In this document: positions 1 to 43,121 of the stretch, one piece after another
How the letters are laid out: each line of letters starts with the position of its first letter
How positions within the stretch are numbered: the stretch's first letter is position 1
IMG/VR virus record: IMGVR_UViG_3300040789_000082
Coordinates: 1-43,121 of that record
Source of the DNA: a virus
Length of the DNA stretch: 43,121 bases
Direction: 5' to 3' (one strand)
The notes under the pieces: model-generated
Seen by the model: only the letters and a program-made list of their open reading frames with translations
What the model was told of the DNA's origin: nothing
The model's database searches: none
Made by a program: the position numbers and the translations under genes

Positions 1-1
1 A

Positions 2-799
2 CAGTCTGACGCCAGCCTGAACGGAGACGGCACGGGCGGCAGCCCGCTTTCCGTGAATCAGGCCTCCATCAATACCAGCCAGATCAACAACGATGCCGGC
101 TTCGTGACGGCAGTAGATCAGGCCGACGTCGTCGGCGGCGCGGGCATTAACGTAACACAAAGCGGTACCGAATTCACCGTCACCAATACCGCCCCCGACC
201 AGACGGTCAGCCTTACGGACGGCGGTAACGGCAACGTGACCATTGGCGGCACCTACCCCAACTTCACCATCAATACCCCCGACAACCTCGACAACAGCCT
301 CACGAACGAAGCGCAGACGCTGCAAGGAACGAGCGCGGGCGGATCGGCGGCGCTGCAGGTCAGTGCGGTCTCCGGACAGGGTGGCGGCACAATTCTAATC
401 AAGGGTGCGGGTGGCATCACCACCAGCCTGGATGTCGATAACAACATCGTCGTCGATGGTAGCGGCATCACCGGCAGCGGGGACGGCAACAATCTCGATG
501 AGCGCGAAGAACTCAGTCTGACCGAGCCCGCTGCGGATCAAGTGCAGTTCAACCTCACCACCAACGGCGGGACGGTAGGCAATCGGGGCACGGCAATCGT
601 CACGGTGGGCACCTCCAACCTCAGTATCGAACTAGTGGGAAACACCATCACCATCACCGACCTGAAGTACACCGGTATCGTCGCCGAAAACCCGGCCGAC
701 GCGGCCAACAAGGGTGTGCCGATTGGCAAGAACTTCATCGCTGCTGACCCGAATACTATGGGACTGCCGGCTGGCGTCTCGATTGAACGTAAACAGTAG
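2..799 (+). CDS. Tail-fibre-like protein, copy A (5' end missing)
   Basis: The reading frame is open from the first bases of the window to a TAG at 797-799, so the start lies outside. The product is low in complexity and rich in Gly, Asn, Thr and Asp, with an early NTSQINNDAGFVT motif that I know from phage tail fibres and adhesin-like tail proteins of Bacteroidota. About 265 residues are visible. Comparison with the paralogue at 41939-43121 suggests about 129 N-terminal residues are missing, including a probable signal peptide, for a full length near 394. The C-terminus carries the motif DAANKGVPIGKNFIAADPN, also found in two other proteins of the window. The next gene starts 3 bases after the stop. 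A virion surface or host-contact role is inferred from context, since no catalytic motif is visible. Confidence 0.75.
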   Translation, partial: QSDASLNGDGTGGSPLSVNQASINTSQINNDAGFVTAVDQADVVGGAGINVTQSGTEFTVTNTAPDQTVSLTDGGNGNVTIGGTYPNFTINTPDNLDNSLTNEAQTLQGTSAGGSAALQVSAVSGQGGGTILIKGAGGITTSLDVDNNIVVDGSGITGSGDGNNLDEREELSLTEPAADQVQFNLTTNGGTVGNRGTAIVTVGTSNLSIELVGNTITITDLKYTGIVAENPADAANKGVPIGKNFIAADPNTMGLPAGVSIERKQ

Positions 800-24224: not shown

Positions 24225-24422
24225 ATGAAGATCCACTACGAACACTACCCCGCAGGTCGTAACGATGCCGGCCAACCCCATCAGGATTGCAAAGCTGTAT
24301 GTACCCGCTGTGGCCTGGTCAAGGTCTTCCGTCACCACCGACAGTTCGCGGCCAATCGTCGGGATGCAGAGCGGGGGATGGAGGGGCATTTTTGCGATCG
24401 GGATCGTCGGGGGGCGGGATAA
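24225..24422 (+). CDS. Small zinc-ribbon-like protein
   Basis: A 65-residue His/Cys-rich basic protein with CKAVCTRCG followed by HH and HFC, suggesting a small zinc site. Its stop codon touches the first hairpin repeat (B1) of the cassette array, so it is the last gene of the early operon before the array. Confidence 0.5.
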   Translation: MKIHYEHYPAGRNDAGQPHQDCKAVCTRCGLVKVFRHHRQFAANRRDAERGMEGHFCDRDRRGAG

Positions 24423-24478
24423 TGTGAGTGCCGGTGCAGGCCGACGAAGGAGGCTTGACACTGGCACTTTATTGGGCG
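24421..24478 (+). repeat. Hairpin repeat B1 (cassette boundary)
   Basis: This is the first of three related elements of 58-61 bp. Outer arms AGTGCC/GGCACT and inner AGGCC/GGCTT form an imperfect hairpin around a GACGAAGGAG loop, ending in ATTGGGC. It shares GCAGGCCGACG(A/T)AGGAGGCT with B2 and B3. Here the left outer box GCCCAAT is missing, as expected if this is the edge of the array. The architecture (imperfect hairpin between inverted 7-mers) is attC-like. Confidence 0.75.
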
Positions 24479-24493
24479 AATAAATAATAATTA

Positions 24494-25465
24494 ATGAACC
24501 ACGGATCACTTTTTAGCGGGATAGGAGGCTTTGACCTTGCAGCTCAGTGGATGGGTTGGAATAATATCTTCCATTGCGAAAAGGATTCGTTTTGCCGGAA
24601 GGTGCTCACGCATTACTGGCCTCAATCATTTAGTCATGCAGACATCACCGAAACAGATTTCACTGTTTACCGCGGACAAATCAACGTTCTCACGGGAGGC
24701 TTCCCCTGCCAGCCATACAGCACAGCAGGAAAGCAGAAAGGCACCGAAGATGACCGCCATCTATGGCCGGAAATGCTCCGAGCTGTACGAGAGATCAGGC
24801 CGCGCTACGTCGTGGGGGAGAATGTTCGTGGCCTCGTTAATTGGAACGGGGGAATGGTCTTCGACCAGGTGCAGACTGATTTGGAAAATGAGGGGTACGA
24901 AGTTCTCTCGTTTTTACTTCCAGCTTCGGGCGTTGACGCTCCCCACCAGCGATATAGAATCTGGTTTGTTGCCTACGCCAACGGTGGTTTACACGAGGGA
25001 GAACTGGCCGCTGGAAAAGGTGAAGGCGAGACAGCAGGAAGTGAAAGAGGCCAGCAACGGAAAATCGGGCAACGGCTTTGGTTTAAACTTGCCACACGTC
25101 GCGCGAATGCTTCCAACGCCTCGATCGAGAATGACGGGCGGCGTATCGGAGAAACGGGCGGCCGACAAGAACCCGAATTTGGAGAGCGTTCTATCCCGAA
25201 TAATTATTCCTACACCATATGCAGCCGACGGATTCAAAACTACCAAATCGCAGAACCAAAATTCACTAGACAAGGCATTCCAAACTGGAGCAGTTTCCCA
25301 ACTCAATCACCGCTTTGTGATGGAGATGATGGGCTTCCCACCCGATTGGACAGAATTACCATTTCAAGACACCGACGAGAAACAATAAAAGCAGGAGGTA
25401 ACGCTATCGTCCCTCAACTCGCTTTGAAGATTTTTCAATCAATATCGGAGGTTTCCTATAGGTAG
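24494..25465 (+). CDS. DNA (cytosine-5) methyltransferase
   Basis: A 323-residue m5C methyltransferase that would protect phage DNA from host restriction or mark it. Motif I is SLFSGIGGFDLA (5-16), motif IV is GGFPCQPYS (68-76) with the catalytic Cys72, motif VI is ENV (109-111), motif VIII is QRYRIW (152-157), and motif X is GNAIVPQLA (from about 302). The target-recognition region (about 165-280) is weakly patterned and coincides with a second open frame (see 24636-25388). The gene is the cargo of the first hairpin-bounded cassette, and its TAG overlaps repeat A1. G+C is lower than in the neighbouring replication genes, consistent with separate acquisition. Confidence 0.92.
   Translation: MNHGSLFSGIGGFDLAAQWMGWNNIFHCEKDSFCRKVLTHYWPQSFSHADITETDFTVYRGQINVLTGGFPCQPYSTAGKQKGTEDDRHLWPEMLRAVREIRPRYVVGENVRGLVNWNGGMVFDQVQTDLENEGYEVLSFLLPASGVDAPHQRYRIWFVAYANGGLHEGELAAGKGEGETAGSERGQQRKIGQRLWFKLATRRANASNASIENDGRRIGETGGRQEPEFGERSIPNNYSYTICSRRIQNYQIAEPKFTRQGIPNWSSFPTQSPLCDGDDGLPTRLDRITISRHRRETIKAGGNAIVPQLALKIFQSISEVSYR
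24636..25388 (+). CDS. Overprinted second protein inside the methyltransferase gene
   Basis: A frame shifted from the methyltransferase is open from 24531 to 25388. The likely start is ATG 24636 (MQTSPKQISLFTADKSTF), giving 250 residues. The translation is not random: it has ESRKAPKMTAIYGRKCSELY, three PTP motifs (LLPTPTVVY, MLPTPRSRM, IIPTPYAADG) and ends in NHRFVMEMMGFPPDWTELPF. I know the PTP repeats and the EEMMGFPxxWTxLPF ending as a recurrent phage protein beside or inside m5C methyltransferase genes in Bacteroidota phages. At the same nucleotides the methyltransferase frame encodes its own conserved FPTQSPLCDGDDGLP segment. Function unknown, perhaps a partner or specificity factor. Confidence 0.65.
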   Translation: MQTSPKQISLFTADKSTFSREASPASHTAQQESRKAPKMTAIYGRKCSELYERSGRATSWGRMFVASLIGTGEWSSTRCRLIWKMRGTKFSRFYFQLRALTLPTSDIESGLLPTPTVVYTRENWPLEKVKARQQEVKEASNGKSGNGFGLNLPHVARMLPTPRSRMTGGVSEKRAADKNPNLESVLSRIIIPTPYAADGFKTTKSQNQNSLDKAFQTGAVSQLNHRFVMEMMGFPPDWTELPFQDTDEKQ

Positions 25466-25508
25466 ACGCCGTGCCTTCGGGCATGGACGTTCTAGCTGAT
25501 ATTGGGCG
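25455..25508 (+). repeat. Hairpin repeat A1
   Basis: TAGACGCCGTGCC pairs with GGCATGGACGTTCTA around a short TTCG-type loop, followed by GCTGATATTGGGC. It begins at the methyltransferase stop codon. A2 (26661) shares GTAGACGCCGTGCC, GGGCATGG and TCTAGCTGATATTGGGCG. Confidence 0.75.
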
Positions 25509-25579
25509 AACGTAGCGCAGCCGAAGCGATGAATCATCCATCCACCGACCGGTTTTCGGATGCGATATTTCGACCCAAT
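25501..25579 (+). repeat. Inverted 7-mers between A1 and B2
   Basis: ATTGGGCGAA (25501) faces TTCGACCCAAT (ending 25579) across a 79-bp spacer containing GCAGCCGAA/TTCGGATGC and GATGATTCATC-like inner inverted repeats. The corresponding A2-B3 spacer has the same outer boxes but a different inner sequence, so structure rather than sequence is conserved. Confidence 0.6.
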
Positions 25580-25633
25580 GTGAGTGCCGGCGCAGGCCGA
25601 CGTAGGAGGCTTGACGCTGGCAGTTTATTGGGC
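25573..25633 (+). repeat. Hairpin repeat B2
   Basis: Bounded by ACCCAAT (25573-25579) and ATTGGGC (25627-25633), it contains GTGAGTGCCGGCGCAGGCCG and GGCTTGACGCTGGCAG forming an imperfect hairpin. It is nearly identical to B1 over about 55 bp. Confidence 0.75.
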
Positions 25634-25850
25634 GCGGTGCGGGTCGTCACTTGCAAGTATGATCGCGCTAGCCTACTTTTGCTGGTGCCATATCCATCAT
25701 TCATCACGTAGCATCTGCTATGATCTTTCAAGTCATCATTCACAACTTAGGGGACAGGATTGGCCTGCGGCGGGAGTCGCGGGCGTCTACCGACTGCGAA
25801 AGCGGATGGATGGATATGGCACTTTCCTGCTCCCCGCTTTATTCTTTCCA
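25634..25850. repeat. Non-coding leader of cassette 2 with 14-bp inverted repeat
   Basis: GTGCCATATCCATC (25685-25698) is repeated inverted at 25809-25822 (GATGGATATGGCAC), and a third, direct copy of TGCCATATCCATCC overlaps the start of the next gene at 25852. The 110 bp between the arms have no convincing gene. It could be a structured RNA, a miniature insertion or a regulatory stem. Confidence 0.5.
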
Positions 25851-26660: not shown

Positions 26661-26714
26661 CTATGGGTAGACGCCGTGCCTTTTGGGCATGGTCGATCTA
26701 GCTGATATTGGGCG
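26661..26714 (+). repeat. Hairpin repeat A2
   Basis: The same hairpin as A1, GTAGACGCCGTGCC with GGGCATGG and TCTAGCTGATATTGGGCG, with only a few substitutions (loop TTTT instead of TTC, and TCGA for ACGT). It starts 3 bases after the antirepressor stop. Confidence 0.75.
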
Positions 26715-26782
26715 CTGTGCTTGTTGATTAGCAATCCGTAGTACTCACTAGGTTTGCTATTTATCTAGCATAGCGGCCCAAT
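26707..26782 (+). repeat. Inverted 7-mers and nested hairpin between A2 and B3
   Basis: ATTGGGC (26707-26713) and GCCCAAT (26776-26782) enclose GCTGTGC/GCATAGC and TAGCAA/TTTGCTA, giving a long cruciform-capable structure. No gene fits here. Confidence 0.65.
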
Positions 26783-26835
26783 GTTTGTGACAGTGCAGGC
26801 CGACGTAGGAGGCTTGACACTGTCACTGTATTGGC
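26776..26835 (+). repeat. Hairpin repeat B3
   Basis: GCCCAAT, then GTGACAGTGCAGGCCG and GGCTTGACACTGTCAC, ending ATTGGC. The arms differ from B1/B2 by compensatory changes (CAGTGAC-type pairing is retained), which argues that the hairpin itself is selected. Confidence 0.75.
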
Positions 26836-26858
26836 TGCTGTTTTTTTAACTTTATACT

Positions 26859-41938: not shown

Positions 41939-43121
41939 ATGAAGCAGTTTCTTTCCCTACTCTTCCTGCTCGCCATTAGCCTGACGGCCGGAGCGCAGGT
42001 CCAACTCATCAGCCCCTCCCCCGGTGGGGGTATCAGCTACACGGACGGAGACCCCGATCTCTGCGCCGAACTGCTGGTACAACAGGCCGGCGAGACCCGC
42101 TATGCGATCGACGTGACGACGAATACCGCCTACAAGTACGTAACCTTCGAGGCCCGCCTGGACGGCAACCGCTGGGACCCCATTCAGGAGACCGACGATC
42201 AGACCGGCGTCGAAGTGCTCCTCAGCCAAGTCAATGGCATTCAGGGGGCTAACGTGCAGGCCGAACTCGAAAGCATAAGGGCTGCACTGGCCTCCGGCGG
42301 CGATGCCTGGGGTGCGCAGGTCGTACAGTCTGACGCCAGCCTGAACGGAGACGGCACGGGCGGCAGCCCGCTTTCCGTGAATCAGGCCTCCATCAATACC
42401 AGCCAGATCAACAACGATGCCGGCTTCGTTACCGCAGTCGATCAGGCGGATGTAGTTGGTGGTACGGGCATCGATGTGCAGCAGAACGGTACAGAGTTCA
42501 CGGTGAGTAACACCGCCCCCGACCAGACCATCACCATTCAGGACGGCGGTAACGGCAATGTAAGCGTTGGCGGCACCTACCCCAACTTCACCATCAATAC
42601 TCCCAACAACCTGGACAATAGCCCCACCAACGAAGCACAAACGTTACAGGGCACCAGCTCAGGCGGCTCTGCAGCTATTCAGGTCAGCTCGGTTAGCGGG
42701 CAGGGGGGCGGCACGGTACGGGTGAAGGGCACCGGCGGGATTGCCACCAGCCTCGATGTGGACAACAACGTCGTCATCGACGGCTCGGGCATTCAGGGGA
42801 CGGGCGACGGCAACAACCTGGATGAGCGCGAAGAACTCAGCCTGACCGAGCCGGCCGGCGGGCAAGTACAATTCAATCTGACCACGAACGGCGGTACGGT
42901 CGGCAACCGGGGTACGGCCATCGTCACGGTCGGTACTTCTAATCTCGGTATTGAACTGGTCGGCAATACCATCACCATCACCGACCTGAAGTATACCGGC
43001 ATTGTAGCCAGGAACCCTACCGACGCGGCCAATAAGGGGGTGCCGATCGGCAAGGAGTTCATCACCGCCGACCCCAACGACATGGGCCAGCCGGCCGGCG
43101 TATCGATTGAGCGTACCCAGT
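41939..43121 (+). CDS. Tail-fibre-like protein, copy B (3' end at window edge)
   Basis: The frame runs from ATG 41939 to the last base, 394 codons; the final T is probably the first base of the stop. Residues 1-20 are a Sec signal peptide (MKQFLSLLFLLAISLTAGAQ). The rest is low-complexity and Gly/Asn/Thr-rich, with NTSQINNDAGFVT and the DAANKGVPIGKEFITADPND C-terminal motif. It is about 87% identical to copy A by eye (roughly 34 differences in 265 residues), with one 105-bp block identical in DNA. Confidence 0.75.
   Translation, partial: MKQFLSLLFLLAISLTAGAQVQLISPSPGGGISYTDGDPDLCAELLVQQAGETRYAIDVTTNTAYKYVTFEARLDGNRWDPIQETDDQTGVEVLLSQVNGIQGANVQAELESIRAALASGGDAWGAQVVQSDASLNGDGTGGSPLSVNQASINTSQINNDAGFVTAVDQADVVGGTGIDVQQNGTEFTVSNTAPDQTITIQDGGNGNVSVGGTYPNFTINTPNNLDNSPTNEAQTLQGTSSGGSAAIQVSSVSGQGGGTVRVKGTGGIATSLDVDNNVVIDGSGIQGTGDGNNLDEREELSLTEPAGGQVQFNLTTNGGTVGNRGTAIVTVGTSNLGIELVGNTITITDLKYTGIVARNPTDAANKGVPIGKEFITADPNDMGQPAGVSIERTQ

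Follow-up and report, generated by a model that had tools for sequence, protein, structure and literature searches.

A nested +1 open reading frame as the probable second subunit of a phage C5-cytosine DNA methyltransferase

Does a phage methyltransferase gene whose +1 frame is open over several hundred bases encode one protein or two? The locus in question lies in the window, i.e., the whole stretch of 43,121 nucleotides that was analysed, a phage contig (G000, virus record IMGVR_UViG_3300040789_000082). Its surroundings include a nucleoside deoxyribosyltransferase-like gene, an anti-repressor and an endolysin; no restriction enzyme was noticed adjoining the methyltransferase gene, although no systematic search was made. 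An earlier note, prepared from sequence alone, had proposed that one stretch of DNA encodes here both an enzyme and either its partner or a factor that determines specificity, and this proposal is supported by our comparative evidence: we consider it very likely (probability about 0.85) that the locus specifies a two-subunit C5-cytosine DNA methyltransferase, the subunits of which we call alpha (frame 0) and beta (+1 frame).

The frame 0 product, alpha, is a C5-cytosine DNA methyltransferase of 323 amino acids (24494..25465; this and all following features lie on the + strand). Motif I (SLFSGIGGFD, 24506..24535), motif IV with the catalytic cysteine (GGFPCQPYS, 24695..24721), motif VI (GENV, 24815..24826), motif VIII (QRYRIWFVA, 24947..24973) and, directly 3′ of the beta stop, motif X (GGNAIVPQ, 25394..25417) are recognizable by sequence, with PCQ of motif IV and ENV of motif VI being invariant in the family alignment. 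Thus, the tested features of PF00145 are present in one frame, except that motif IX is absent from it: the best score of a motif IX matrix in the window's alpha frame is −9.1. The C5-methyltransferase models of Pfam and NCBIfam cover the N-terminal half of alpha only, as the match to PF00145 (E 7.7e-42) is confined to profile positions 2–165 of 324 and the match to TIGR00675 to positions 3–163 of 329. An AF2 model is confident at residues 1–165 and 300–323 (motif X helix) and unfolded between them; its comparison with M.HhaI gave Z 24.4 and an rmsd of 2.6 over 200 aligned residues with 28% identity. Hence, alpha resembles M.HhaI and the ordinary single-chain PF00145 enzymes in its fold and catalytic motifs, whereas in these enzymes a single chain includes motif IX as well as the recognition domain. 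The variable region of alpha (residues 167–262, 24992..25279) has a pLDDT of mostly 33–57 and is predicted to be unfolded. Together with its near-neutral evolution in the alpha frame, this predicted disorder makes it likely that the region serves as a linker.

The +1 frame of the same gene is open at 24525..25388 (287 codons) and ends with a TAA at 25386–25388. The earlier note had described an open frame from 24531 to 25388 that contains three PTP motifs, and both statements held, the former exactly; only the start requires correction, as 24531 is merely the first TTG past a stop, whereas the ATG at 24636 is the conserved start. The nested ORF from this ATG to the TAA (24636..25388, 250 amino acids) is beta, the probable second subunit, which is supported by a profile match to phrog_1008, by its openness in homologues and by purifying selection. 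Of 138 relatives, 101 have an ATG at alpha codon 48 or 49, a beta-frame ATG precedes codon 90 in 245 of 249 loci, and the synonymous divergence of alpha drops from 0.69 to 0.27 at codon 48. Moreover, Shine–Dalgarno-like sequences, as judged by eye, are located 5′ of the beta ATG in phages Shelly, Sitara, SEN4, C72C1 and K1G. The recurrent ATG, the drop in divergence and the Shine–Dalgarno-like sequences favor a separate start of beta over a frameshift fusion; in the absence of expression data, translation from 24636 remains an inference.

Within beta, the best-predicted part is a conserved β-hairpin (WSSTRCRLIWK...FYFQL, 24855..24935) with a pLDDT of about 90 at residues 81–100, and residues W74, S76 and W83 are invariant in the beta alignment. 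According to alignment and sequence, the PTP motifs follow as LLPTPT (24966..24983), MLPTPR and IIPTPY (IPTP at 25206..25217). The ORF ends with ...MEMMGFPPDWTELPF..., which occupies the bases of FPTQSPLCDGDDGLP in the other frame; the two frames share their bases at ...FPTQSPLCDGDDGLP... and ...QLNHRFVMEMMGFPPDW.... This is where the motif IX of beta, SQLNHRFVMEMMGFPPDW (25296..25349), is positioned. The window's beta matches phrog_1008 with an E-value of 2.3e-19 over profile positions 36–286 of 329, which is most of the profile length, and searches of Pfam and NCBIfam returned no family for it. A sequence search of solved structures with beta gave no match, either. With a mean pLDDT of 59.5, its structure model is poor; the hairpin at residues 80–100 and the motif IX helix are the exceptions, and Foldseek found no structural match for this poor model. 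Possibly, the low confidence reflects a subunit that folds on its partner, but this is an inference.

Could the +1 frame be open by chance? For the window alone, the answer is that this is only moderately unlikely: when synonymous codons are shuffled such that the methyltransferase protein and its codon usage stay fixed, 22 of 5000 shuffles reach an equally long open +1 stretch. We rest the argument on homologues, which comprise viral loci selected by the +1 protein (L010–L089), viral loci selected by the methyltransferase frame only (L090–L245), and 80 bacterial loci, mostly from Bacteroidota, plus Bacillota, Pseudomonadota and several candidate groups. Across 148 homologues picked by the methyltransferase frame only, not a single +1 stop occurs before the beta stop, compared to 578 expected from synonymous shuffling. 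From PCQ to motif X, all 146 measurable methyltransferase-selected viral loci keep +1 free of stops, compared to an average of 16.5 stops in +2. Taking all viral and bacterial sets together, +1 is open in 333 of 336 distinct complete loci; L460 and L472 have an early +1-frame stop. The outcome of stops in close homologues, which the earlier note had named as one that would refute it, was not borne out. A control within 49 bacterial genomes that carry the family yielded 5–26 +1 stops in each of 21 ordinary C5-methyltransferases and an open +1 frame in 25 family members. The openness of the +1 frame across the family is thus not due to chance. At one locus, L400 (about 941–2700), it is the alpha frame that is stopped 3′ of motif VIII, with the beta ORF open for 509 codons; this alpha is possibly truncated or made from two pieces.

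An open frame is not necessarily a selected one, and we assessed constraint in two ways. The first compares, at conserved alpha residues, the observed identity of third bases with that expected from codon usage. The ratio of the two is about 1.1–1.3 before the beta ATG, 1.5–1.85 over motifs VI–VIII, peaks at 2.43 (observed/expected) at alpha residues 281–290 under the beta segment LNxxFVxEMMGFPxxW, and is back to about 1.1 past the beta stop. The second is a four-class substitution count, our own implementation of the overlapping-gene dN/dS idea, in which beta is represented by dNN/dNS and alpha by dNN/dSN; it was applied to 299 methyltransferase-selected pairs and to an independent set of 1006 pairs from beta-selected and bacterial loci. 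Upstream of the beta ATG, the values are 0.94 for beta and 0.07 for alpha (299 pairs). In the variable region, the situation is reversed: beta has 0.52 and alpha 0.98 in the 299 pairs, 0.57 and 0.91 in the independent pairs, and 0.46 and 1.15 when the alignment is guided by beta instead of alpha. The motif IX region follows with 0.46 for beta and 0.78 for alpha (299 pairs) and 0.31 and 0.68 (1006 pairs), the full range over all analyses being 0.31–0.48 and 0.68–0.86. Downstream of the beta stop, beta is at 0.82 and alpha at 0.11 in the smaller set, and at 1.02 and 0.10 in the larger set. A short stretch, 68–86, lacks the beta signal in one set (1.34) and shows it weakly in the other (0.73). 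Because the pairs are non-independent, bootstrap intervals come out narrower than they should be; owing to transition bias, moreover, the neutral baseline lies slightly low, at about 0.9, as the upstream region shows. Both frames are under purifying selection, but in different places, which also disposes of constraint explained by one frame only, the other outcome that the earlier note had named as refuting. From behind motif VIII to the beta stop, selection acts mainly on beta.

In the within-genome control, a regular expression for motif IX finds it in frame in 18 of 21 ordinary C5-methyltransferases versus none of 25 family members. With a matrix derived from 17 motif IX peptides of ordinary enzymes, LNxxFVxxMMGFPxxW is the top-scoring window in 192 of 208 beta proteins, and scores exceed the 99th percentile of shuffles in 88% of beta proteins versus 5.8% of alpha frames. 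The window's own motif IX reaches a modest 6.6 bits (99th percentile of shuffles, 0.9; canonical peptides against themselves, about 48) and is without the canonical R–E pair. Beta ends at a median distance of −3.3 codons from the motif X of alpha, and the order of motif IX and motif X therefore matches that of a single-chain enzyme. The alpha segment FPTQSPLC.GDDGLP, in turn, is weakly constrained (dNN/dSN 0.7–0.9) and looks to be mainly a shadow of the motif IX of beta. As alpha is near-neutral and beta constrained in the variable region, beta most likely holds both the recognition region and motif IX, with the qualification that motif IX is assigned by sequence match only and the recognition function is inferred. 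Forms that join motif IX and motif X in one frame were not encountered among the best 80 loci picked by the motif IX segment (0/80).

How widespread is this arrangement? Related genes that show it number in the hundreds in phages and prophages. Searched by tblastn, the +1 protein hit 67 phage records, and in each of the first eight, which include phages of Lacticaseibacillus, Bacteroides, Paenibacillus and others, the hit is the +1 frame of a methyltransferase; overall, about 17 phage isolates are represented, among them also phages of E. coli, Salmonella, Pseudomonas, Vibrio, Mycobacterium and Synechococcus. A beta match lies in +1 at all 156 methyltransferase-selected viral loci, and a +1 match overlaps the methyltransferase at all 80 bacterial loci. 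A stand-alone beta was found neither in the best 80 beta-selected viral, 80 bacterial and 80 motif IX-segment loci nor in the phage isolates; distant forms are not excluded. The nested ORF is annotated as 'g55/g59 internal gene' in the Paenibacillus phages Shelly and Sitara and as 'putative Mte8-like protein' in phage K1G, in both cases without function or mechanism, and most other records carry an annotation for one frame only. Seven phage beta proteins match phrog_1008 (E 8e-74 to 1e-16). This family of 329 positions is named 'DNA methyltransferase', a name apparently inherited from the overlapping gene, and its entry mentions neither the nesting nor motif IX nor a subunit role. Genome annotation usually overlooks this probable second subunit.

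Several loci deviate from the common picture in other respects. In Synechococcus phage Ssp-JY39 (L251, 856–1971), the beta frame alone is annotated, as a hypothetical protein, and the methyltransferase is missed, which is the reverse of the usual error. In L472 (1451–2335, 1710–2258), the N-terminal half of beta is of another kind, SFATYDQESSSWRTSQ...WPRAGTMRSGTAF..., and this beta is still nested in +1 within the methyltransferase; consequently, at least two types of beta N-terminus exist. On a Klebsiella aerogenes plasmid (L335, LR134256.1), the beta match is in three pieces, one without an annotated gene and the others under uncharacterised ORFs, and may represent a decaying copy. A Roseovarius MAG (OX638333.1) holds five copies of one alpha/beta gene in one chromosome (L295–L297, L299, L300), which might point to several related prophages or a mobile repeat.

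With these results, the remaining statements of the earlier note can be judged. Its recognition of the ORF's ending from stand-alone phage proteins failed, since the ORF lies inside a methyltransferase gene in every homologue examined, and so did the related idea of a stand-alone family that was overprinted, as beta was found nested only; a search of phage sequences with the +1 translation, as it had suggested, gave only matches within methyltransferase genes among the records examined. That the methyltransferase frame keeps its own motifs in the overlap failed as far as strong motifs are concerned: the PTP region is part of beta, as is motif IX, and the alpha frame takes over again at motif X. 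The coincidence of the variable target-recognition region with the overlap held as to position, with selection assigning this region to the beta frame.

The following mechanism is inferred, including the translation of beta, the heterodimer, recognition by beta, the enzymatic activity and the protective role. Frame 0 would be translated into alpha, which contributes the AdoMet-binding and catalytic motifs I–VIII and the C-terminal motif X helix. Translation in +1 from the ATG at 24636 would yield beta with an N-terminal part including the β-hairpin, the variable PTP-rich region and motif IX. Beta would then bind alpha and thereby supply the target-recognition part and the motif IX that alpha is without, so that both together form the active enzyme, which would methylate cytosine at a specific site. 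Over the variable bases, the alpha frame would merely have to remain free of stops, serving as a linker that leads to motif X. The methylation would probably shield the phage genome from host restriction; such protection is what one would ordinarily expect of an orphan phage methyltransferase.

The closest known case is M.EcoHK31I (YGGCCR), which consists of two polypeptides: the larger one contains motifs I–VIII and X as well as the predicted recognition domain, the smaller one motif IX only (PMC3404938). The small polypeptide is reported to be read from another frame within the gene of the large one (Lee, Kam and Shaw 1995). M.EaeI resembles M.EcoHK31I, which is otherwise known as a single biochemical curiosity. 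Our family shares with M.EcoHK31I a large polypeptide with motifs I–VIII and X but without IX, a motif IX in the smaller polypeptide (here by sequence match only), and a small ORF that is nested within the large gene in a different frame. It differs in that the variable region is under selection in the nested frame, whereas the recognition domain of M.EcoHK31I is predicted in the large subunit, and in that it is a widespread phage and prophage family with no restriction enzyme identified alongside. The family likely works like M.EcoHK31I, a conclusion by analogy without sequence comparison between the two; because the recognition region appears in beta and homology is uncompared, we do not file it as a member. 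M.AquI is likewise a C5-methyltransferase of two polypeptides and divided in the variable region, but it is split differently from M.EcoHK31I (PMC3404938): its split is linear (motifs I–VIII / IX–X), whereas motif X stays with alpha here and beta is fully nested. In the literature searched, which left most subscription papers out of scope, we found no description of the nested ORF in phages, so that its absence is unproven.

Which other explanations survive? The most resilient, though in our view unlikely, is that beta is translated but separate from the methyltransferase, such as an anti-restriction or regulatory factor that merely arose inside the gene. In its favor, no biochemical link of beta to the methyltransferase has been shown, its fold is unresolved owing to the poor model, and about half of it, located over the catalytic motifs, has no resemblance to a known domain. 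Against it, beta is only ever located inside this type of methyltransferase in the viral, bacterial and phage loci examined, its C-terminus matches the sole motif that alpha misses, and it ends at motif X. Much weaker still is programmed frameshifting that would fuse alpha residues 1 to about 165 with the +1 frame into one chain with motifs I–IX, leaving no free beta. The order of segments fits, with motif VIII in frame 0 and the variable region and motif IX in +1. However, the +1 constraint begins near alpha codon 48 at the recurrent ATG, far 5′ of motif VIII in a part that the fusion would leave untranslated; Shine–Dalgarno-like sequences precede this ATG in several phages; and motif X would be lost unless a second shift occurred. 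Finally, a non-coding frame kept open by composition, codon usage or the conserved methyltransferase protein, which the frequency of equally long ORFs in shuffles of the window would permit, is all but excluded and was rejected on account of the missing stops with protein and codon usage fixed, the ordinary C5-methyltransferases of the same genomes that show nothing similar, and a constraint profile that turns on and off at the start and stop of beta.

Returning to the two-subunit enzyme, its origin can only be inferred. As the C-terminus of beta matches motif IX, the recognition region and motif IX may be the old reading, put out of frame by a shift 3′ of motif VIII; the N-terminal part of beta over motifs IV–VIII would then be newly overprinted, although no single-frame relative by which the events could be ordered was found among the 80 motif IX-segment loci. 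We lean, with little margin, toward a bolder formulation: the recognition half of a globally distributed phage and prophage enzyme family has moved to a nested +1 subunit, probably by a frame split of a single-chain ancestor, the original frame now being a near-neutral linker, and few fully nested gene pairs on one strand in DNA phages would be as widespread and as divergent as this one. If the two-subunit reading is true, many cytosine methyltransferase genes of phages and prophages that are annotated as complete miss their recognition half, and cloning the annotated frame alone would probably give a seemingly inactive enzyme or the wrong specificity. The curiosity M.EcoHK31I would become a family for testing the origin and upkeep of long overlapping genes, to which it is suited because the two frames divide constraint by region. 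Moreover, a large set of natural two-part methyltransferases would be at hand for engineering split enzymes for targeted methylation.

Repeats were observed around the locus as well. A 68-nucleotide repeat with GGAGGCTTGACACTGGCACTTTATTGGGCG is present between genes in three copies that are 81–100% alike (24415..24482, first copy on the + strand; 25571..25638; 26774..26841) and flanks the methyltransferase and the next genes. It might be a promoter or a cassette boundary, but its role is unknown. A second repeat (25476–25508 and 26682–26714) precedes two of the 68-nucleotide copies, and a direct repeat of 300 nucleotides with 86% identity is found near the two contig ends, at window positions 1–300 and 42325–42624.
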